From: Ferrimonas marina
GTDB lineage: Bacteria > Pseudomonadota > Gammaproteobacteria > Enterobacterales > Shewanellaceae
Reading direction: 5' to 3'
DNA length: 64,000 bases
NCBI RefSeq assembly: GCF_900129905.1
Contig: NZ_FQXG01000002.1
Coordinates: forward strand, 124,001-188,000
Part shown: positions 8,670 through 61,501 of the stretch, one piece after another
How the letters are laid out: each line of letters starts with the position of its first letter
Numbering within the stretch: the stretch's first letter is position 1
Translations under genes and position numbers: made by a program
The notes under the pieces: generated by a model
Told to the model about the DNA's origin: nothing
Databases searched by the model: none
What the model saw: the letters and a program-made list of their open reading frames with translations, nothing else

Positions 8670-9020
8670 ATGCCCTTTTCCCGTTCCGCCAATCGCCCAC
8701 CGCCACGCCCCCGGCCGCCCAATGACGCCGAAACACGGTTCTATAGTGCGGTGTTCGCCAAGCTTCGTGCCCAGCCCGAGCTGCAACAGCAGCTTCGCAC
8801 TAACCTGGCGCAGTTCCAGGCCCGGCAGTTCCTTAGCAAAAGTCAGCGCCGCGCCCTGGTGGACTTTGGTTGGATCCTGGCGGCCAATCTCAGTCTGGAT
8901 GAGCTTGAGCAACGGTTGATGGCGGACGATCGCAACGGCCAGCGTCTTCGTCGCTTCCCCCAGCTGTTTCATGGCGTGCTCAGCCCAGAGGAGCTGGAAC
9001 GACTGCACCACTCGGGCTGA
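8670..9020 (+). CDS. Small basic hypothetical protein
   Basis: The open frame extends upstream to 8496, but the upstream part translates the repeated leader and has no protein-like composition. The ATG at 8670 is therefore preferred, giving 116 residues. After a Pro/Arg-rich start the protein becomes a plausible helical domain (about residues 25-110) with AKLRAQPELQQQLRTNL and LSKSQRRALVDFGWILAAN. No catalytic or binding motif was recognised, and no function is proposed. It lies between nrfA and the AT-rich ankyrin insert. Confidence 0.55.
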   Translation: MPFSRSANRPPPRPRPPNDAETRFYSAVFAKLRAQPELQQQLRTNLAQFQARQFLSKSQRRALVDFGWILAANLSLDELEQRLMADDRNGQRLRRFPQLFHGVLSPEELERLHHSG

Positions 9021-9071: not shown

Positions 9072-9836
9072 CTACACATTGTTATCCAGGCCCATTATCT
9101 CCATGGCCCTCAGATATTTAATGTGTTTCTCAGAGCCATGAACAATCCGTTCGTTGTAGGTAGACATTAATTCTTTGAAAGAAAGCCCTGCGCATGATGT
9201 AACTTCAACCGATGCTCCATTCTCATATAAATAAACTACAGCATCAAAACGACCCACCTGGGCAGCCATATACATTACTGTAACACAACCTCTATTGACA
9301 TGTTCTATATTGGCACCAGCGTCAACCAAGAAAATCATCGCACTTGGAACTTCTTCATTAAATGGATCTATGGTGCTGAATATAGGTGTGGCACGAAAGT
9401 CGTCCTCTATCTCAATGTTGCCAGAGAAAATGATTAATTCACTAAGCAAAGATACAAATTCATTCTCTGCTGTCAGATGCAACAAAGTAGTTCCATTGAA
9501 TTTGACATTAGGGTCCGCTCCTAACCTAAGAAGTTCTCTGAACATTTCTACATCATCAAGAGCACAGAGTAATAGCGGTGAACCGTCCCCCACCTTAAAA
9601 TTTATATCACTCCCTTGGGCCACCAATTCATTGAGAAGTAAAAAGTCACGTTCCCTGACAGCGCTGAATACTTGCAGATTATTTTCTGAAACCTCATCAA
9701 ATTTACACGAGTAAGAAACAAAATAGCTAGGACTAGGTTTCGCGGAAAGAAAGTCTGCGGAAGTAAAGATCGCGGAACATGCCTGCATTAACAATGTTGA
9801 AATCAATACTAAGACTTTTAACCTAAGCTCTTGCAT
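9072..9836 (-). CDS. Ankyrin-repeat lipoprotein
   Basis: The ATG at 9836 is chosen because it begins a lipoprotein signal peptide (KVLVLISTLLMQAC, lipidated Cys near residue 20). The open frame extends 15 codons further upstream. The mature part contains at least three ankyrin-type repeats, recognisable as L..GADPN, GTTLLHLTAEN, DAGANIEH, TVMYMAAQVGR and YENGASVEV. Ankyrin repeats mediate protein-protein contacts. A lipid-anchored form would act at the envelope, possibly as an immunity or scaffold protein, but that is inference. The base composition is clearly AT-richer than the neighbouring genes, and the gene lies inside a segment bounded by direct repeats. Both suggest horizontal acquisition. 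Confidence 0.85.
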   Translation of the reverse strand: MQELRLKVLVLISTLLMQACSAIFTSADFLSAKPSPSYFVSYSCKFDEVSENNLQVFSAVRERDFLLLNELVAQGSDINFKVGDGSPLLLCALDDVEMFRELLRLGADPNVKFNGTTLLHLTAENEFVSLLSELIIFSGNIEIEDDFRATPIFSTIDPFNEEVPSAMIFLVDAGANIEHVNRGCVTVMYMAAQVGRFDAVVYLYENGASVEVTSCAGLSFKELMSTYNERIVHGSEKHIKYLRAMEIMGLDNNV

Positions 9837-9908
9837 ACGCCTCCAACGGTTAAATAAATGGCTAGTGATAACAGAGCCCATCGACTTGCTGGCAAACTCA
9901 AGCTCTCG

Positions 9909-10202
9909 TTAAGAGCTCTGTTCCTCCACAAATATTCCAGATATTTTTTGGCCTCGGTTTCGATTGCACCACCATTTATAAAATGGATAACCAAATAAAG
10001 CATTCAACAATCCATAAAACCCACCAGTCAACGGAAGAATAACTGAACCTAGAAATACGTCTGCGCCTGATTCATAAGGCTGAAAAAACATACCTGCAAA
10101 CAAAGAAATAATCATTAGAATCACTCCTGTTCCAAAACCACACACTCCAAGGACCTTCATAAGGCTCTTAATGTCGAGTTCAGAACGAAACTCCTTATTC
10201 AT
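9909..10202 (-). CDS. Small two-helix membrane protein, unknown
   Basis: This 97-residue protein has two hydrophobic segments at about residues 15-40 (GVCGFGTGVILMIISLFAG) and 47-70 (FLGSVILPLTGGFYGLLNAL). A polar, basic C-terminal tail (KWWCNRNRGQK) follows. No family was recognised. It is upstream of the ankyrin lipoprotein gene on the same strand, 72 bases apart, and shares its AT-rich composition, so the two are probably cotranscribed and were probably acquired together. Confidence 0.65.
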   Translation of the reverse strand: MNKEFRSELDIKSLMKVLGVCGFGTGVILMIISLFAGMFFQPYESGADVFLGSVILPLTGGFYGLLNALFGYPFYKWWCNRNRGQKISGIFVEEQSS

Positions 10203-11479: not shown

Positions 11480-11597
11480 GCAGCATCCCTCAATCCCTTT
11501 CATCGCTGTCCCGATAGGCTTAATTCAACCGCTGGCCACTGCGCTGTACACACTGCTTACGGTGGCCCGGCTCAAGTCATAACGGAGAGGACAAAGG

Positions 11598-12467
11598 ATG
11601 AAAACGTCAGTGGAATTTTGGAGTCACGGTGACCGCCTGGTGGGCACCCTGTACCTGCCGGAGCAAGGCACCGGCCCCTTCCCCGGCCTGGTGATCACCG
11701 GCGCCTGGACCACGGTCAAGGAGCAGATGCCCAGCCTGTACGCCCAGCAGATGGCCGAGCGCGGCTTTGCTGCCCTGGTGTTTGATTTTCGCGGCTGGGG
11801 CGCCTCCGACGGCGAGCCTCGCTACCTGGAGCACCCCGAACGCAAAAGCCGCGACATCGAGGCGGCGGTTGCCTTCCTGGCCGAGCGGCCGGAGGTGGAC
11901 AGCAATCGCCTTGGAGGGCTGGGGATCTGCGCCTCCTCCGGTTACATGAGCGATGCCGCCACCCATAGTCCCCTCATTCGCAGCTACGCACTGGTGGCCC
12001 CCTGGCTGCACACCCCGGAGATCGCCGAAGCGGTGTACGGCGGTGCCGAGGCGGTACAAGGGCTGATCGCCCAAGGCCGCAGCGCCGAGCAAGCGGACAC
12101 ACCGCAATACATCGAGGCGGCCAGCACCACTAATGAACAGGCCCTGATGTACCAGGCTCCCTACTACACCGAACCGGAGCGCGGCCTGATCGCAGAATAC
12201 GACAACCTGTTTAACCTGGCGTCCTGGGAGCCCTGGCTGCGCTACGACAGCCACCGCAACGCCAACAACGGCAAGCCTGCCCTGCTGGTGCACTCTGAGG
12301 CGGCGGTGATCCCGAACGGAGCTCGGCAGTACCTTGAGCGCAAGGGCAGCGACGGCAAGATGCTGTGGCTGGACAACGTCACCCAGTTCGACTTCTACGA
12401 CCAGCCCGAGCCGGTGCGTCTGGCCTGCGACGCGGTTGCCGCGCATTTTCGTTCGACCCTCAACTGA
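11598..12467 (+). CDS. Alpha/beta hydrolase with Cys at the nucleophile position
   Basis: This 289-residue protein shows an alpha/beta-hydrolase fold of the COG1073/dienelactone-hydrolase type. An N-terminal strand region (LVGTLYLPEQG) is followed by LVITGAWTTVKEQM at the oxyanion position and FDFRGWGASDG. The nucleophile elbow reads GLGICASSG, placing Cys111 where most members have Ser. A C-terminal region with LLVHSEAAVIPNGAR and DFYDQPE follows. Cys nucleophiles are known for dienelactone hydrolase. The substrate is unknown. A strong ribosome binding site (GGAGAGGA) precedes the ATG. The next gene begins 14 bases after the stop, indicating an operon. Confidence 0.85.
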   Translation: MKTSVEFWSHGDRLVGTLYLPEQGTGPFPGLVITGAWTTVKEQMPSLYAQQMAERGFAALVFDFRGWGASDGEPRYLEHPERKSRDIEAAVAFLAERPEVDSNRLGGLGICASSGYMSDAATHSPLIRSYALVAPWLHTPEIAEAVYGGAEAVQGLIAQGRSAEQADTPQYIEAASTTNEQALMYQAPYYTEPERGLIAEYDNLFNLASWEPWLRYDSHRNANNGKPALLVHSEAAVIPNGARQYLERKGSDGKMLWLDNVTQFDFYDQPEPVRLACDAVAAHFRSTLN

Positions 12468-12481
12468 AGGAGCCGACCGCA

Positions 12482-13474
12482 ATGAAGAGCCGACTTACCA
12501 CCCTGTTGATAAGGACCATGGCGCTTGCGGCCATCCCCTTTGAGTTAACAGCAGAGAGCCAAGAGACCATGAACAGCACCCAATACACTCAAGAGCACGC
12601 CGCGGTCCGCGCCGTTATCCAAGCGGTGGGCAACCTGGCGGACAGACACCAGTTTGAGGATCTGCAGCAGCTCTATGCCGATCAGGTACTGCTGGACTAC
12701 CAGTCCCTCAGTGGCGAAGCCCCACAACGCATTGAGGCGCAGACGCTGATGACCCAGTGGGCCTCGGTACTGCCCGGGTTCGACCAGACCTACCACGACC
12801 TTGGCACTATCCAGATAGAGCTTGATGGCCAATCCGCCATCGCCACCGCCCCAGTACGGGCCCAGCATCACCTGGATGGCGAGCTTTGGCAGGTGAGCGG
12901 TCACTACCGCTACGCCCTGGCCCAGCAGCAAGGCCGCTGGCGTATCACCGAGCATCAGTTTGTGCTGGAGCAGGAACAGGGGGATCGGGCACTGCTGTCC
13001 GAGGCCGTGACTCGAGCCGCTCAGCAGCCGGTCGCCTACCTGCAGCGCCAGCAAACCGTGGCGGCGGTGCGCGACTTCCTGTCAGCACTGGAGCGCAAGG
13101 CGATGGACGACTTTGCCGAGGTATGGAACGAGGATGCAGTCCAGCACATGCCCTATGCCCCGGAGGGCTTCCCCAAGCGGGTGGAGGGTAAAGAAGCGCT
13201 GATCGCCCACTACGCGGGCTGGCCGGATAACGCCGGCAAGGCGGACTTCCTGTCCCAGTTCAGGGTGTACCCCATGGTGGACCCGCAGTGGGTGTTCGTG
13301 GAGTTTGTTGGCGAGGCGGAGATCCGACCCACCGGTCGCACCTACCACCAAAACTATGGCGGTCTGTTCCACGTGGTTGGCGGCAAGATCTCGCTGTTTC
13401 GAGAGTACTTCGACCCAGCCCCGTTCAAGTACGCCTTTGGCCTGGAGGAAGGCGGCAGCTTTCACCCCGAGTAG
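12482..13474 (+). CDS. Tandem SnoaL/NTF2-like domain protein, probably exported
   Basis: The ATG at 12482 has a good ribosome binding site (AAGGAG) and is preferred over the longer open frame that overlaps the hydrolase gene. The 330-residue product begins with a hydrophobic, basic segment resembling a weak signal peptide ending near ELTAES. Two NTF2-fold (SnoaL-like) domains follow. The first is at about residues 35-175 (AVRAVIQAVGNLADRHQFEDL to WRITEHQF). The second is at about residues 200-325 (VRDFLSALERKAMDDFAEVW to FREYFDPAPFKYAFG). SnoaL-like domains act as cyclases, isomerases or binding proteins. Together with the hydrolase it may process an organic compound under control of the AraC regulator. 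Confidence 0.8.
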   Translation: MKSRLTTLLIRTMALAAIPFELTAESQETMNSTQYTQEHAAVRAVIQAVGNLADRHQFEDLQQLYADQVLLDYQSLSGEAPQRIEAQTLMTQWASVLPGFDQTYHDLGTIQIELDGQSAIATAPVRAQHHLDGELWQVSGHYRYALAQQQGRWRITEHQFVLEQEQGDRALLSEAVTRAAQQPVAYLQRQQTVAAVRDFLSALERKAMDDFAEVWNEDAVQHMPYAPEGFPKRVEGKEALIAHYAGWPDNAGKADFLSQFRVYPMVDPQWVFVEFVGEAEIRPTGRTYHQNYGGLFHVVGGKISLFREYFDPAPFKYAFGLEEGGSFHPE

Positions 13475-13525
13475 GGCTTATCTTCAGGGACGCCCATACT
13501 CAATATCACTGGGCGCTGGATACTA

Positions 13526-13586
13526 GGCGCTAGGCACTGGGCACTTGGCACTTGGCACTTGGCACTTGGCATTAAGCATTAGGCAC
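13526..13586. repeat. Heptanucleotide tandem array (GGCACTT)n
   Basis: The unit GGCACTT occurs four times perfectly at 13540-13567. It is flanked in register by degenerate units GGCGCTA, GGCACTG, GGCATTA, AGCATTA and a partial GGCACC. The array lies in the noncoding gap between two secreted-protein genes. Confidence 0.9.
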
Positions 13587-13672
13587 CGAGGAGCGATTGC
13601 CCGGTGCCCTGTGCTTCTAAAAGAAAAACAGTCCGGCAAAGCCATTAATGTCAAACCAACGGGGGCTCATCG

Positions 13673-14269
13673 ATGAACCTGTTCAACCCTGCACCACGTT
13701 CGCTCTGGATTCTTCCCGTACTGGCCATCGGGCTCTTCACTTCCAGCGTTATGGCCAATGAGGGAGTCACAAGCGGGGAGGTTGAGAGTTCAGCGCAGGC
13801 GCAGGCGCAGGCCCAGCCCCAGACCACGTCCCAAATCCCTGCGTTGGACACGTTAAGCCCCAACTACGATGCCAAGGCTCGCGCCGAGTTCAGCCACAAT
13901 GACGTGGCGGCCTTCGTCTACCAGTGGTTTGCCGGCTTCGACCACCAACGTGAAGCGCGCTTCTTCTTAGAGCGCATCGCAGAACCGGTCGCTCTTCACT
14001 ACCCCGACGCGCCACTGCGCTCCGTGGACGACTTCCTCGGCTGGTACCAGGGCGTCATCGACAACATCGCCTGGAATGCTCACGAGCTGAGCGAACTTTC
14101 AATTCAAGGCAATCAACAACAGGGTTGGCAGGTCAGCTACCTGGTGCGCTGGCAGGCGAGGGATTACAGCGGACAAAACCTGGAGATGGACGTAGCCCAG
14201 CAGCTGGTGATTGTGCGAGAAGGGGAAGCACTGAAAATCGCGCAACTGAGGGCGAAGCTTCATGGGTAA
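13673..14269 (+). CDS. Secreted NTF2-like hypothetical protein
   Basis: This 198-residue protein has a signal peptide (LWILPVLAIGLFTSSVMA) with cleavage expected after residue 27 or so. A low-complexity Ala/Gln segment (AQAQAQAQPQ) follows, encoded by an imperfect CAGGCG hexamer repeat at about 13796-13820. The globular part (about residues 70-198) looks like an NTF2/SnoaL-like domain, with HNDVAAFVYQWFAGFDHQRE near its start and a closing beta strand VIVREGEALKIAQLRA. A function in binding or catalysis cannot be told from sequence. It may be linked to the SnoaL-like gene upstream, with the heptamer array between them. Confidence 0.7.
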   Translation: MNLFNPAPRSLWILPVLAIGLFTSSVMANEGVTSGEVESSAQAQAQAQPQTTSQIPALDTLSPNYDAKARAEFSHNDVAAFVYQWFAGFDHQREARFFLERIAEPVALHYPDAPLRSVDDFLGWYQGVIDNIAWNAHELSELSIQGNQQQGWQVSYLVRWQARDYSGQNLEMDVAQQLVIVREGEALKIAQLRAKLHG

Positions 14270-14321
14270 CTAATTTAAAAGGACCGAGTTTGGCTAGGTC
14301 CCGCCCACACTGAATAGATTT

Positions 14322-14894
14322 TTATAGCCTGTCATAGTTCTTTGCCACGGTCTCATTAATCTCGTCGGCAAGTACCTGAGCCTCTCGCATGGTTTCTTGA
14401 ACAAGTTCCCAGTTTCTCCAGTGCTGCTCCCATTTATCCTTCCCGACCACGAACTCGAAATCTACTTTGGTAGGGGCTTCAGCACTTTCATAGCGCTCAA
14501 GACTTTCCATTCTTTGCTTGATATCTTGCACACCTTTAGTTTTGGGCGACAACGCAGCATCACTCAACATCCAGGCACGCCAATCCTTATTCCCTTTCGA
14601 CTGATTACATTTCCCACACGCTGGAACTAAATTTTTTATTTCAGATACATACCCTGTGGGCCTCTTGTTCATTACTAGTGGGCGAAGATGATCCCATTCG
14701 GTTGCTTCGGAACCACAATATGAACACTGAAACGAATTTAGGTCCATGCCAAGCATATGAAGTGCATGCTTCACTTCATCTTCTGTAGGCTCAATCACTG
14801 GAATAATTGAGTTAATGAATGAATTCGTGATACTTGACGACCTGCCCGTTATTTTCATCGGCCTTGGCATTTTAAAAAGCGACAAATAGATCAT
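14322..14894 (-). CDS. HNH endonuclease
   Basis: This 190-residue protein contains a zinc-ribbon HNH nuclease core: CSYC at about residues 58-61, the catalytic segment EWDHLRP (His at about residue 69), then NLVPACGKCNQSKGNKDW, which supplies the Asn and the second Cys pair. HNH enzymes cut DNA and occur in restriction systems, homing elements and phage-defence systems. The start at 14894 has an AAGG five bases upstream; an internal ATG at 14870 is the alternative. The gene is AT-rich compared with the chromosome. It is the last of three genes on the minus strand, 37 bases after the membrane-protein gene, so a joint function is likely. Confidence 0.88.
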   Translation of the reverse strand: MIYLSLFKMPRPMKITGRSSSITNSFINSIIPVIEPTEDEVKHALHMLGMDLNSFQCSYCGSEATEWDHLRPLVMNKRPTGYVSEIKNLVPACGKCNQSKGNKDWRAWMLSDAALSPKTKGVQDIKQRMESLERYESAEAPTKVDFEFVVGKDKWEQHWRNWELVQETMREAQVLADEINETVAKNYDRL

Positions 14895-14931
14895 AACAAC
14901 CTTGATTTAGATCTGTTTCAACCCATAGAAA

Positions 14932-15396
14932 TCATTTAACTTTTAGCAGCATACTTTTAATGGATATAATGGCCATATAGAAACTGCATGCATTGATTAA
15001 AATAACCAACGTTGATATAAGAAACAGCCAGGCGAGCTTAAATTGTTCCAACCCATCAATTAGCCATACGTAGATGCAAACAATGGAAAAAACAACTGCA
15101 ATTAAGATCCCGATATTAAAGTGACACTTTAGCTTCCAGTAATCTGGCCATTCATGAAGAAACTTATCAAGCTTTTCATTCGGGAAAATAACAACCTTTC
15201 CTTCTTTAAAGGTCCACCCGACAATGCCAAGAGGTAACATCAATAGCCATTTGCGTGCATCCTCATTAATGCTCAAAGACTCGAAAGCCTCTTTCAATTC
15301 TGGCTCAAAAGAAAAATACAAAAAAACACCACTCAAAAAGACAAGCATCTCAAAACTTATAAAAATGATTCGGAGATAGTAAATTGACTTCATCAA
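14932..15396 (-). CDS. Membrane protein of the HNH operon, unknown family
   Basis: This 154-residue protein has an N-terminal hydrophobic helix (about residues 8-28). A soluble segment with charged helices covers about residues 30-85. Two closely spaced C-terminal helices follow (about residues 92-115, IGILIAVVFSIVCIYVWLI, and 121-145, LAWLFLISTLVILINACSF). The start codon overlaps the stop of the upstream gene by four bases (ATGA), so translation is coupled. I do not recognise the family. Its place between an unknown soluble protein and a nuclease is the main clue. A membrane effector or anchor is possible, but that is inference. Confidence 0.75.
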   Translation of the reverse strand: MMKSIYYLRIIFISFEMLVFLSGVFLYFSFEPELKEAFESLSINEDARKWLLMLPLGIVGWTFKEGKVVIFPNEKLDKFLHEWPDYWKLKCHFNIGILIAVVFSIVCIYVWLIDGLEQFKLAWLFLISTLVILINACSFYMAIISIKSMLLKVK

Positions 15397-16274
15397 TGCT
15401 TCATATCTCTTTCTTTTGTAACTCGACTAAAATGTGTATTAGAAACCTTAGCTAGGTCATAAGGAGCTGGTTCCTTTGGAAATAGGAAGCTTTTTTGTGT
15501 ATCGCTAGTTTTAACCACAACCTCCTCTCCACCTTCTAGTCCAACAACCTTACCTCTGCCATAACCATCTGCTGCCATTAGTATTGCAGCATCGCCAATA
15601 TCCGGGATTTTTTCAGGCTCAAACTCAGAATCTTCTAGGATTCTGTCCATCAATTCAACAATATTAGACTTTAAACCATCAGTCTTAGATGTTTGCTCCT
15701 TTACTGTAATCTCTGAAGCATTTCTCTCAGAAATATAAGTATTTAGACTAGACCAAAGCCTTCCAAATAAAGGGTTAGGCGGGAATACAGTCGCTGAGAA
15801 TTCAGTATAATGGCTTAACTTTTTCAACCTGGATGTGAATTTTCTATAGTCAGATACTGGATCTATATCGCAGGAAATAAAGAAATTATCATATGCCTTC
15901 TCGATAATTGACTTGAAGCGCCTAGGGAAAACTTCCTCTTGAATGCCATTCCAAACATGTAAGTAAGCTATTCCAGAGCACTCAGGAAGGTATACGAACG
16001 GTGAACTTGCTTCCACGAGATTTGGTACGTCAGTATTTACTTGATTTCGTTTTCCTTCATCAATTACGGTAGCATGACCGTTTTTCGCATATTTAGACAG
16101 CTTACCGAACACAAATGGCAATTCAGAATCTCTATTGTCTACAATATCAGTAATTGTCCAGTCGAACTTTCCGACTGTAACAATTGGAGGGTTAGAAATT
16201 GCATCCATAATTTGCTCTTGACTTAAGTTTATTTTTACAACTCGCCCTAGGAAATATCGGCCTCTTTTCATCAC
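15393..16274 (-). CDS. Unknown AT-rich-operon protein, first gene of HNH operon
   Basis: This 293-residue soluble protein has no signal peptide or membrane segment. Recognisable stretches include LPFVFGKLSKYAKNG, a serine/proline-rich strand pair SSPFVYLPECSGIAYLHVW, PRRFKSIIEKAYDNFF, ATVFPPNPLFGRLWSSL, and a C-terminal beta-rich end with AADGYGRGKVVGLEGGEEV. The overall layout reminds me of DUF4747-like proteins, but this is from memory and not verified. It starts the three-gene AT-rich operon and overlaps the membrane-protein gene by four bases. No function is assigned. Its composition differs sharply from the GC-rich genes on either side. Confidence 0.7.
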   Translation of the reverse strand: MMKRGRYFLGRVVKINLSQEQIMDAISNPPIVTVGKFDWTITDIVDNRDSELPFVFGKLSKYAKNGHATVIDEGKRNQVNTDVPNLVEASSPFVYLPECSGIAYLHVWNGIQEEVFPRRFKSIIEKAYDNFFISCDIDPVSDYRKFTSRLKKLSHYTEFSATVFPPNPLFGRLWSSLNTYISERNASEITVKEQTSKTDGLKSNIVELMDRILEDSEFEPEKIPDIGDAAILMAADGYGRGKVVGLEGGEEVVVKTSDTQKSFLFPKEPAPYDLAKVSNTHFSRVTKERDMKH

Positions 16275-16472
16275 ATCCTCAATTATTTACGAAGTCCAAT
16301 CGCATATTTCATTCAAATTAATTTTGTGCCGGATAATATTACCGCAACATTATCTCTCGCAGCGGTGTCAAGAAACTATCAAGTGAATGGGAGTCAAGCA
16401 ATGCGTTAGATGCAGCAATTTCGCCGTGCAGGTGGCAAGACAAAGAAGATGTCACATGCAGACCTAAACGCG

Positions 16473-16509
16473 ACAGGCCGCCCCGTCATGCAATGACGGG
16501 GCGGCCTGT
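16473..16509. repeat. Perfect 17-bp inverted repeat (hairpin) downstream of diheme peroxidase gene
   Basis: The arms at 16473-16489 and 16493-16509 are perfectly complementary around a three-base loop (GCA). There is no strong T run on either side; on the minus strand a short TTT follows 9 bases later. It lies 43 bases beyond the 3' end of the minus-strand cytochrome gene. It probably terminates or stabilises that transcript. Confidence 0.7.
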
Positions 16510-16552
16510 ACGATTCTCTACCTGCTGGTTTCTAAGAGCTTGCCAGTTGGGC

Positions 16553-17962
16553 CTACTGAAAGGGGTCGCTGTACTTCTCGTCGGCGAGCATCGTTTCATC
16601 GGTGAGGGTGTGGAGAAAGGCCACTAGGGCATCTTTTTCTTCTTGAGTGAAGTCAAAGCGGGCGGGTTCGCCGTCGGAGGTTATCAGTGGTGCCATCAGG
16701 TTGGGGTGAGGCTGGATACCACTGCTGTAGTGTTCAATCACCTCCTCCAGCGTCGCGAAGCGGCCATCGTGCATATAGGGCGGTCGCGCGCCGATGTTGC
16801 GCAGTGAGGGAACCTTGAACTTACCGATGTCATTTGGATTGCCAGTGGTTTCGTAGACGCCGAGATCGTCGGTGGAGTCCGCATCCAGTCCATTGTTGGT
16901 GGCGGTGGTGGAGCCACGCACGGCGTTGGGCACCGGACCGATAAAGGCCTCACTGACGTGGCAGCCGGCGCAGTTGGCCCGGTCACCATTGGCCAGTGTG
17001 ATGGGCTGCAGGAACAGCCGCTTGCCCTGGTTCTCCTGGTCGGTAAAGCCAGGGAAGTTGTCGGTGGCGGACTCCACCTCGGCCCGGGCGATATCGTACT
17101 TGGCCGTGGTGCTCACCATGCTGCGAACGAACTGGGCCAGGGCACGGGCGATGCGATCGCTATTGATCGTCTCATCGCCAAAGGCGTTGGCGAACAGTGC
17201 CGGGTAGTAGGTTTGCTCCGCGACAATCTGCTCCAGTTCATCTAGCGTCAGTCCCATTTCCACAGGATCCTGGAACGGCATCAACACCTGCTCCTCCAGG
17301 GTGTCTGCCCGCTCGTCCCAGAAGAACTTGCCGCTGTCGTAGAAGCGGGCGTTGGTCAGCCCCATCGAGTGGCGCCGGGTCAGCTCGTCGTCAAAGCCAC
17401 GGCTGAGCACCTCGGGATCGGAGAAGCCATGCTCCGCCTGATGGCAAGACGCACAGGAGATGGTGCCATTAGCGCTGAGCTTGATGTCGTAGAACAGCAC
17501 CCGTCCCAGGGTGGCGCCATGGTCGGTGATGGGGTTGTCGTCCGGGGTGTTGTCCTGATCAATCGCGGCATGCTGAAACAGCGCCTGATCGTTAAAGCTG
17601 TTGCTGGTGTAGTGCTCCGGCAGTTCAATGTTGGCGTAGTTGTAGGGCTGTTCTGGCAGTGTTGGCACCTGCCCTTGCGGGCTTTCAGGATCGGTATCGT
17701 CACCGGGCGTAGTGTCATCGCCAGGAGCAGCTTCCTCCTCCGGTGGGGTTTCGTCCTCACCAGGTTCAGTACCGGAGTCATCACCCGGCGTGCTTTCTTC
17801 AGGATCAGCACCCGATTCCTCGCCGTCGCTGCCTTGTGCCGGTTGCTCTTCACTGGGGGGTTCAAGGGTGGCCGGTGCGCTGTCATCGCCGCCGGAGCAG
17901 CCGCTTAGTGCCAGAAGGCTGGCGATCATCAGGCTGTGTTTGAGGGTGTGAGGGATGTCCAT
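16553..17962 (-). CDS. Diheme cytochrome c peroxidase/MauG-family lipoprotein
   Basis: The 469-residue protein has a lipoprotein signal peptide with lipobox LSGC (Cys22). An acidic Pro/Glu/Asp/Gly-rich linker covers about residues 27-100. The catalytic part follows, with two c-type heme sites: CASCH at 170-174 and CAGCH at 331-335. It has the layout of bacterial cytochrome c peroxidases and MauG-like enzymes (FYDIKLSANGTISCASCH, then PPYMHDGRFATLEEVIEHY). The likely role is periplasmic peroxide reduction or oxidation of a protein or small-molecule substrate, with electrons from a small cytochrome. The linker may hold the enzyme away from the membrane. The neighbouring genes do not reveal a partner. 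Confidence 0.9.
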   Translation of the reverse strand: MDIPHTLKHSLMIASLLALSGCSGGDDSAPATLEPPSEEQPAQGSDGEESGADPEESTPGDDSGTEPGEDETPPEEEAAPGDDTTPGDDTDPESPQGQVPTLPEQPYNYANIELPEHYTSNSFNDQALFQHAAIDQDNTPDDNPITDHGATLGRVLFYDIKLSANGTISCASCHQAEHGFSDPEVLSRGFDDELTRRHSMGLTNARFYDSGKFFWDERADTLEEQVLMPFQDPVEMGLTLDELEQIVAEQTYYPALFANAFGDETINSDRIARALAQFVRSMVSTTAKYDIARAEVESATDNFPGFTDQENQGKRLFLQPITLANGDRANCAGCHVSEAFIGPVPNAVRGSTTATNNGLDADSTDDLGVYETTGNPNDIGKFKVPSLRNIGARPPYMHDGRFATLEEVIEHYSSGIQPHPNLMAPLITSDGEPARFDFTQEEKDALVAFLHTLTDETMLADEKYSDPFQ

Positions 17963-18166
17963 ATCGTTCGGCTCCTTGCCCGGACGCCTGGCCTTTACCT
18001 CCTTGGACTATGCCCCAAGGCCAGGTGCGGTGAATTGCTCTTATTGGCCAGCCCGTCGACACAGCGACGGGGCAGCAAACGCGACATCCTCATAGTGCGT
18101 CAGGCCACGCCCCCTTTCTGTAATGCTTTGTATCAAAGTTGTTAAATGCGCCGGATTGCCGGAAGC

Positions 18167-18191
18167 AAAAAGGCTGGCGATTGCCAGCCTT
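18167..18191 (-). terminator. Terminator of the M19-type gene
   Basis: A 9-bp stem (18170-18178 with 18183-18191) is followed on the minus strand by a run of five T. It lies about 30 bases past the stop codon of the minus-strand gene that ends at 18224. Confidence 0.85.
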
Positions 18192-18223
18192 GTCGCTTTA
18201 GTGCGTCATGTCGTCGAGGTAAT

Positions 18224-19540
18224 TTAACGGGTGCCGTACTTCTCCATCAGCTGTTGGCGCAGCTGCAAACGCTCTTCCATCTCCTCATCCCACTGGCCCC
18301 GGGCGGCGCCTTCCCAGACCCGCTGGAATACCCGCATCTTGTTGCCGCCGTAGATCTTGGCCAATTGAGCGTCGGTATAGCCGCGCTGCCAGAGATCATC
18401 AGTAATAGCCGGCAGGATCCGCGCCAGCATCGCCGCATCATCCGCCCCTTGGTTAAAGGCGTTGATCATGTAGCCGCCATCGTTGTACATCGCGGCGTTC
18501 TTCTTGGCGAAGGCCACCACCAGCGAGACATCGTACATGTCGTCGGTGGCCAGTCCGACGTGGTCCTCCCCCAACAGCTTGACGTAATAGTCAATCATAT
18601 CCGCCGCCTGCTTGGGGGTAATGTCATCCGGCCAGATCCCATCCAGCATCCACTCGGTAAAGGTGGGCGAGACGTAGCCGCCGGACTTCACCACCCGCAG
18701 CGCCTCCTCGTCGGTAATGTTGCGATAGCAGCCCTTGGGCGTGGCCATGGGCTCGTCCTTGTACAGCCCCGCCGGGATAGAATGGGTAAAGACGTAGGGC
18801 ACGTCGGGGTAGTGCTCATCCATGTGGTCCATGGCGTCCATCGCCGTTTGCTTGCCGGTGTGGCTGAGATCCAGCAGGATGCCCCAGCGCACCATCTCAT
18901 CAATCACCGCCCTGCCCCAGGTCGTCAGGCCATCGTCCATGCCGTTGTAGGCGGTCAGTGAGCCTGAGCCGGTGCGGAAGCGATCGTTGTAGGCCAGGAT
19001 CATCGAGTTGATGCCCATCTCCTTGAGCATCGGCATGCGGGAGAGATCTTCCTCGAGGATGGTGGCGGTTTGAGAGTTCCAGATCACCGCGGTCTGGCCC
19101 TTAAGGTGGGCGGATTCAATATCCCGGATGGAGCGGACAAAGACGTAGTTTTCCGGCTCTTTGGCCATGGCGGCGCGAAAGGCCCGATGCTGGCGCATCA
19201 GCTCATCCCAGTTGTGGGAGGCGGCGGTGAGGGTGAGTTCGTGGCCGGTGATCCCCGCCTCGCGGGACTCCCGGTAGTAGCTGAGCAGTTGCTCATCCTC
19301 GGTCCAGCCGGTGCCATGGGGGCTGGCCATCATACCGATGACGATGTTGTCTTTGACGAACTGCTTGGCTTTGTCGGAGGCGGGCCAGGTCTTGGCCTTG
19401 AGGCTGGCATGGGCGCTGACGGGCATCAGCAGCAGGGCCGCCGACATAACTAAGGTCACAACTTTAGCCATGCCCGTTGCCCATCGCCTGGCAGTGAGTT
19501 CGGTGGCCGATTGATTGCAGCTGATCCTTCCCTGGTCCAT
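18224..19540 (-). CDS. Peptidase M19 (membrane dipeptidase) family protein, divergent
   Basis: The start at 19540 has a GGGAG ribosome binding site. It gives 438 residues with a long positively charged n-region and a signal peptide ending near VSAHA (about residue 45). The fold resembles renal-dipeptidase-type M19 enzymes: ILLDLSHTG and YVFTHS supply the two conserved histidines, and GLATDD supplies the C-terminal aspartate. The usual N-terminal HxD metal motif (DGHND in typical members) is not seen. The corresponding stretch reads [12 protein letters not shown], and the glutamate of the EG motif is replaced in [12 protein letters not shown]. Activity as a classical dinuclear zinc dipeptidase is therefore doubtful. 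It could be a specialised hydrolase or amidohydrolase relative. Confidence 0.82.
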
Positions 19541-60856: not shown

Positions 60857-61501
60857 TTAGAGGTGGTCTAGCAGTGCCAGCGGGCGATCAATGATGGCCA
60901 GTGGCTCGGCCTTGAGCAGGCTGGCCACCTCCCCTGCCCCGTAACTGACGCCTACCCGCTCGGCCCCCGCCCGGCGGGCCATCTCCATATCAAACCAGGC
61001 ATCTCCCACCACCACACTGCGTTGCGGCGATACGCCCGCTTCCTGACACAGCTCCAGCACCATCTGCGGATGGGGCTTGGAGGCGGTATCAGAGGCGCTG
61101 CGGGTGTGGGAAAAGAAGTGGCGCAACTGGCTGCTGTCCAGCACCCGCTCCAAGCCATGGCGAGCCTTACCGGTGGCCACCGCCAGCGTTTGCCCACGGC
61201 CGGCCAGGGTTTCCAGCAACTCCGGTATGCCCTCAAACAGCGGTGACGGGGTCTGCTCCGCGTCCAGGTATTGCGCCCGGTAGTGATCGCGAAAGGCGGT
61301 GCGCTGGGTGTTATCCAGCTGCGGCGCCACCTGTTCGATGCAGGCCTCCATCGACAGGCCTATCATCCCCTTAATGGCGGAGGGAGCCGGCACCGGCAGC
61401 CCCATTGCCTGACTGGCCCCCTGCCAGCAGTGAACGATGCGATCGACGGTATCCATCACGGTCCCGTCCCAATCAAAGATCACCAGATCGAATCGGTTCA
61501 T
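60857..61501 (-). CDS. HAD-superfamily phosphatase
   Basis: This 214-residue protein has the HAD motifs in order: nucleophile FDWDGTVMDT (residues 8-17), motif II VATGKARHG, a lysine in SKPHPQMV, and VVGDAWFDMEMARRAG. A helical cap (about residues 18-90) indicates a phosphoglycolate-phosphatase-like enzyme. The substrate is unknown. The gene overlaps rluC by four bases and is probably translated with it. Confidence 0.92.
   Translation of the reverse strand: MNRFDLVIFDWDGTVMDTVDRIVHCWQGASQAMGLPVPAPSAIKGMIGLSMEACIEQVAPQLDNTQRTAFRDHYRAQYLDAEQTPSPLFEGIPELLETLAGRGQTLAVATGKARHGLERVLDSSQLRHFFSHTRSASDTASKPHPQMVLELCQEAGVSPQRSVVVGDAWFDMEMARRAGAERVGVSYGAGEVASLLKAEPLAIIDRPLALLDHL

Follow-up and report, generated by a model that had tools for sequence, protein, structure and literature searches.

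Locus, gene calls and composition

The locus lies in a 64,000-nucleotide stretch of the Ferrimonas marina genome (4.98 Mb), and the whole of that stretch is referred to here as the window. Its features are the following.

14300 to 16400 (edges approximate), strand not applicable: AT-rich acquired block, delimited by composition
15393 to 16271, minus strand: gene A, soluble 292-aa DUF4747/RexA-like candidate sensor (a GTG start at 16274 gives 293 aa)
14932 to 15393, minus strand: gene B, candidate pore/effector, a membrane protein of 153 aa predicted to have four helices; shares one base with A
14322 to 14894, minus strand: HNH nuclease gene, 190 aa with zinc-ribbon cysteines; shares the block with A and B but is not conserved with them

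The three open reading frames as called (15393–16274, 14932–15396 and 14322–14894, all on the minus strand) are present where the preliminary description of this DNA placed them, and the 37-base gap between B and the HNH gene is correct. Two details of the gene starts were revised. The first open reading frame stands, but its product is more likely 292 than 293 residues long, since the relatives of A start at the position of the ATG at 16271 and not at that of the GTG at 16274. Genes A and B do overlap, but the four bases claimed would need a TTG start for B; we place the start at the ATG at 15393 because the relatives start at the corresponding position, and the overlap is then a single base (TGATG). 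The same one-base overlap is found at the Neptuniibacter locus L002, where A ends and B starts at 8882.

The block was also said to be AT-rich in GC-rich surroundings, and the values bear this out (35–44% GC against 60% for the window). The GC content is 0.38 in A, 0.35 in B and 0.44 in the HNH gene, compared with 0.605 for the window and 0.59–0.65 for five nearby genes, and the corresponding GC3 values are 0.30, 0.41 and 0.46, compared with 0.72–0.82 for the five nearby genes. By composition, the A-B-HNH block is foreign. As described before, no integrase, tRNA or terminal repeat was seen at its edges: the window has a single tRNA, at 61278, no direct repeat of at least 14 bases was found in 13900–16900, and neither an integrase nor a repressor was seen by eye among the open reading frames of 11500–19500. 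Relatives of the genes to either side of the block occur in some genomes of the same genus. A consensus scan of 13900–16700 detected nothing resembling a terminator and, on the minus strand, nothing resembling a promoter; two promoter-like sites were found on the plus strand, with 4.8 expected by chance. Just past the stop codon of the cytochrome gene, 16473–16509 is a perfect inverted repeat (17 bases, 3-base loop) that is probably the terminator of that gene. The window holds a second AT-rich island (9072–10202, minus strand, GC 0.38–0.40) that encodes two proteins. One is an ankyrin-repeat protein of 269 aa, whose start resembles that of a lipoprotein by eye; the other has 97 aa and, also by eye, is membrane-like.

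Distribution of gene A and its pairing with gene B

A and B scored above no Pfam cut-off and had no match in PADLOC, NCBIfam or PHROGs; the sub-cut-off Pfam matches were Myosin_N for A (E 0.2) and DUF4282 for B (E 0.07). Their relatives, too, gave nothing above a Pfam cut-off and no clear PADLOC match. A was present in 1 of 194 related genomes and 1 of 398 genomes of the phylum, its own in each case, and in 2 of 369 genomes of the class, its own and G454 (53% identity); the three genome sets overlap. A pattern scan of genome contigs, which reaches close relatives only, uncovered one locus with a 72% identical protein in a Neptuniibacter metagenome-assembled genome (MAG), and a single one of 72,556 plasmid records, from Picosynechococcus sp. 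PCC 8807, carried a relative (25% identity over 59% of the query, E 2e-6). No relative of A was found in phage records, and none was confirmed in viral contigs scanned with A and with B. The A family looks rare, yet it crosses phyla. No A-B pair was reported in the titles and abstract openings of the open-access literature searched, a scope outside which subscription journals fall. AlphaFold models of A and B, made with two sequences per job, reached a pLDDT of 35 (mean, A) and 50, too poor for a fold search that could set A beside the two-domain, RdgC-like dimer of RexA.

In all four A loci (the window, the Neptuniibacter MAG, G454 and the Picosynechococcus plasmid), a gene for a small four-helix membrane protein lies directly downstream of A. 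The membrane nature of the middle gene's product had been noted previously and agrees with its four helices predicted by hydropathy. The B homologues of Neptuniibacter (163 aa) and G454 (156 aa) are 39% and 30% identical to the 153-aa window protein, and the relation of the 177-aa Picosynechococcus protein to B is undetectable (hhalign 20.9, probability 3%). By hydropathy, four hydrophobic stretches are present in all four membrane proteins at a threshold of 1.1, one of the window B helices being weak (1.16), and their spacing is much like that of lambda RexB. Weak B matches in 11 related genomes (E 3e-4 to 9e-4) fall inside frames of 392–406 aa and were left out of the counts.

We compared this pairing with a background made up of the window plus five loci that had been retrieved for the HNH gene. 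Of 117 open reading frames of at least 100 aa, 2 were immediately followed by a protein of 130–225 aa with at least three strong helices, and one of the two was the A/B locus itself; with that locus excluded, the figure was 1 of 116. The comparison is a rough one, as open reading frames without a close neighbour were included and the threshold of 1.5 was stricter than 1.1, so that Neptuniibacter B has only two helices at this setting. We conclude that A and B are a conserved unit.

The surroundings of the pair differ among the loci. In Picosynechococcus it lies between dndD/dndE and the gene for a DNA-phosphorothioation-associated methyltransferase, and nearby are a toxin gene of the HigB family and an HNH_2-type gene, the latter within the Dnd region. 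This HNH_2-type gene (L003, 6443–7393) encodes an HNH_2-domain nuclease on the opposite strand and adjoins the pair. The G454 copy of A follows an open reading frame that we named IS3-like transposase from its sequence, and has a GC content of 0.49 compared with 0.63 around it; two further G454 neighbours had no Pfam or PADLOC match. The composition contrast of the Neptuniibacter copy is unclear (0.41 versus 0.43).

The HNH gene is not conserved with A and B

The third gene had been called a zinc-ribbon HNH nuclease, and its product (P0003) carries the zinc-ribbon cysteines and passes the Pfam HNH model PF01844 (29.4 bits, cut-off 21.4). It also gave generic HNH-domain matches in PADLOC and PHROGs and weak matches to the PtuB domain. 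The last result recalls the Septu system (PtuAB); unlike Septu, however, the window HNH gene has no adjoining gene for a PtuA-type ATPase, the gene on its other side (13673–14269) encoding a 198-aa protein that is not PtuA-like by eye, and A and B have no PADLOC match.

One could envisage that all three genes make up a single defence system, with A as the sensor of infection, B as a localising or gating component and the HNH nuclease as the effector that cuts DNA. The common strand, the 37-base gap, the shared AT-rich composition and the lack of a detected terminator-like site in the block would all be in keeping with such an arrangement, and the HNH gene may be co-transcribed with A and B. 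The co-occurrence data argue otherwise. HNH matches were obtained in 7 of 194 related genomes, namely its own, five with close relatives (58–76% identity) and one with a weak match (G165, E 8e-4), and A was found in none of the HNH-bearing genomes other than its own. Conversely, tblastn with the HNH protein gave no match at L002, L003 or L007, the remaining A/B loci, and the opposite-strand HNH gene of L003 was likewise unmatched. Co-occurrence of all three genes is accordingly rejected; of what the preliminary description proposed, the association of A with B holds in four of four loci, and the inclusion of the nuclease in a three-gene system is not supported.

Selected neighbours of the HNH relatives were scanned with PADLOC in four of the five neighbourhoods. 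No further than about 2 kb from the HNH gene there is an AbiJ-like gene in L028, an OLD/Gabija-like one in L029 and a PD-T4-5-like one in L030, and the one neighbour tested in L031 had no match. These neighbours, which differ from A and B, also speak against the three-gene system, and we regard it as improbable; the HNH gene is most likely an independent defence gene that moves by itself from one defence island to another. Defence-like genes are present in three of the four scanned HNH neighbourhoods, and the Picosynechococcus pair lies inside the Dnd genes; no defence match was detected in the two G454 neighbours and the one Neptuniibacter neighbour scanned. The HNH relative of G049 is in two pieces on two contigs (L032, 83–475; L033, 3499–3708), one of which adjoins a reverse-transcriptase-like open reading frame; judging from the sequence, the gene is possibly interrupted by a group II intron.

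Gene A and the DUF4747 family

The layout of A and B resembled that of lambda RexA-RexB, and this resemblance was put to the test. In the accessible text of three papers, RexA, CarolAnn gp44, Sbash gp30 and Butters gp30 are said to carry a DUF4747 motif, the match being weak for the actinobacteriophage proteins, and DUF4747 appears there as a cytosolic protein, similar to RexA, that is paired with four-helix membrane proteins (PMC6426606, PMC6426596, PMC7542560). None of the four A proteins matched the DUF4747 Pfam model (PF15931). We searched genomes for DUF4747 proteins, with 0 of 185 class genomes and 6 of 398 phylum genomes giving a match, and built a profile from five of the six; a later profile of seven included two plasmid copies. 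The sixth match (L072) is partial and was kept out of the profile but counted in the neighbourhood tally.

The A profile (four sequences) aligned with the seven-sequence DUF4747 profile in hhalign with a score of 51.9 (E 1e-6, probability 91%) over 175 of about 293 columns, and with a score of 40.1 (E 5.4e-5) when the Picosynechococcus member was removed from the A profile. In 100 column shuffles of each, the scores did not exceed 21.8 and 23.5, respectively. With the five-sequence DUF4747 profile the scores were 40.5 (E 6e-5) and, without the Picosynechococcus member, 29.5, compared with column-shuffle maxima of 22.9 and 25.6. Shuffling in blocks of ten, which covers the five-sequence profile only, gave maxima of 31.8 and 28.4, and the score of 29.5 is marginal because it is so nearly reached by the latter. 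The five-sequence HMM detected Picosynechococcus A directly (25.2 bits; E 2e-9 when four sequences were searched) but scored the other A proteins low (P0011, 5.8; P0009, 0.7; window A, −0.1), with no signal for window A itself. Although the profiles are shallow, these comparisons suggest, with moderate to good confidence, that A is homologous to DUF4747.

The DUF4747 genes resemble A in their neighbourhoods as well. A membrane protein of 171–219 aa follows the DUF4747 protein in seven of eight loci (L067, L068, L069, L071, L072, L074 and L075), and no such partner was found in the eighth, L070. In L068 the gene upstream of DUF4747 encodes a CI-type repressor that contains an S24 peptidase domain, an order like that of lambda cI-rexA-rexB. 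The L067 protein is also present, at 100% identity, in a viral contig; this locus, identical to the query, was the only one found in viral contigs scanned with four DUF4747 proteins. With tblastn, two DUF4747 proteins matched 0 and 2 plasmid records, and one DUF4747 protein matched no phage record. When CarolAnn gp44 was compared on its own with the profiles, it matched none of them (DUF4747, 15.4; A, 12.2; RexA, 12.8), in a test that lacks power for single distant sequences.

Among known systems, the pair is close to the DUF4747/CarolAnn gp44-gp43 type of prophage defence: A aligns over 163–175 columns that include the PN(P/A) motif, and a cytosolic gene is followed by a multi-helix membrane gene. 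Unlike these systems, A misses the Pfam model, the window has no nearby immunity repressor, and B shows no clear sequence relation to the DUF4747 partners (24.6, probability 7%, out of register). The earlier idea that a soluble sensor-like protein and a membrane protein make up an abortive-infection layout is supported by the profile match of A, by the published description of a RexA-like partner and by the co-occurrence of A and B elsewhere.

A pair with no antiviral role, either an unrelated two-gene membrane regulator or a toxin-antitoxin-like pair that moves horizontally, would fit the lack of family annotation for A and B, the neighbours without a defence match in G454 (two) and Neptuniibacter (one), and the IS3-like transposase next to one A copy, which suits any mobile cargo. 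We consider this unlikely in view of the shuffle-controlled DUF4747 match, the pairing of DUF4747 with membrane genes and the Dnd context of the plasmid copy.

Comparison with RexA-RexB

Lambda RexAB was tied to phage exclusion 70 years ago; to our knowledge, its activation by T4 rII infection has yet to be explained. We took the lambda proteins from the public record and built a RexA profile of eight sequences. RexA relatives were present in 39 plasmid records, of which four were fetched and none of the eight from Yersinia, and in 19 phage records, of which three were fetched in addition to lambda. Direct homology of A to lambda RexA found no signal by hmmscan, by phmmer/hmmsearch against PDB sequences or by hhalign (18.0), and that of B to RexB gave no hmmscan match and a profile score of 14.8. 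When the A and DUF4747 profiles were merged, the score against RexA was 23.4 (E 0.024, 114 columns), which none of 100 shuffles attained (maximum 21.6), at an hhalign probability of 2%. The step from DUF4747 to RexA thus appears weaker than that from A to DUF4747, and the merged score is suggestive only. The RexA model had no match in the own genome, a result of little weight since the controls also gave none.

In architecture, A/B and lambda RexA-RexB (PF15969, PF15968) are alike: the sizes are 292/153 and 279/144 aa, the gene order is the same, and the predicted helices of B (9–27, 51–69, 94–112 and 125–143) lie close to those of RexB (8–26, 48–66, 84–102 and 116–134). Unlike the lambda genes, A and B lie outside a prophage immunity region, and there is no direct sequence match. 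A further parallel, drawn from description and not from sequence, is RexABpp of P. putida (PP_5643/PP_5644), a divergent RexA-type DNA-binding protein with a four-helix protein for which HHpred gave no probable homologue; according to the portion of the paper available, this prophage-borne pair was tested experimentally and shown to provide RexAB-type defence (PMC12894663). The same text, from 2026, counts five RexAB-like systems described so far, each of them carried by a phage or prophage.

Proposed function of the A/B pair

Taken together, the results lead us to favour, as a fairly probable reading, that A and B are a sequence-divergent abortive-infection pair of the RexAB/DUF4747 type that lies outside a prophage, next to an independent HNH defence gene. 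We infer the mechanism from RexAB as presented in the available parts of PMC12894663 and PMC11077077, because there is little or no direct similarity to RexA and RexB, and neither AlphaFold model is usable. By this analogy, A would be a cytosolic sensor, probably a DNA-binding dimer, that is triggered by phage DNA-protein intermediates or by a phage protein and then switches on B. The four-helix membrane protein would leak ions and damage the membrane, so that the infected cell would stop growing and the phage would fail. Sensing, activation, pore function, dimerisation, DNA binding and phage resistance are all transferred to A/B in this manner.

The roles could also be reversed, with A alone as the antiviral effector and the membrane protein restraining it. 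This is what the accessible text reports for the DUF4747-related pair Butters gp30/gp31, in which the membrane protein holds the cytosolic effector in check (PMC12894663, PMC7542560), and the present data fit either direction. Of the five described systems, however, a single one is published with the reversed arrangement, the membrane protein being the effector in lambda, CarolAnn, Sbash and P. putida as far as the available text goes (PMC12894663), and we think it rather improbable for A/B compared with B as the effector.

A broader proposal, which we put forward tentatively and hold to be doubtful as a whole, is that A/B represents an unrecognised branch of the RexA/DUF4747 group outside prophages, extending from gammaproteobacteria to a cyanobacterial plasmid, there in a phosphorothioation locus. 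One sensor fold would then work with interchangeable pores, the effector having been replaced by unrelated four-helix proteins, and the HNH nuclease may be an added second effector in the window. Such a branch, missed by the family libraries searched, would widen the RexAB class and offer comparison points for the sensor surface. DUF4747 neighbourhoods offer a route to more such pairs, since 17 DUF4747/CarolAnn operons are already listed among the immune operons behind capK-capS in the accessible part of a 2026 paper (PMC13373217).

The searches with RexA also brought to light Rex-type genes on plasmids. A 3.3-kb ColRNAI-type E. coli plasmid (L065, 101–1382) carries a RexA/RexB pair above both Pfam cut-offs (105.9 and 48.3 bits), and among the matches listed, seven plasmid records of 3–5 kb resemble it, so that very small plasmids, and not lambdoid phages alone, carry Rex modules. 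RexA-like proteins are encoded on the Acinetobacter plasmids L064 and L066 as well, with an IS256-type transposase just downstream in L064 and an unannotated membrane-like open reading frame in L066.
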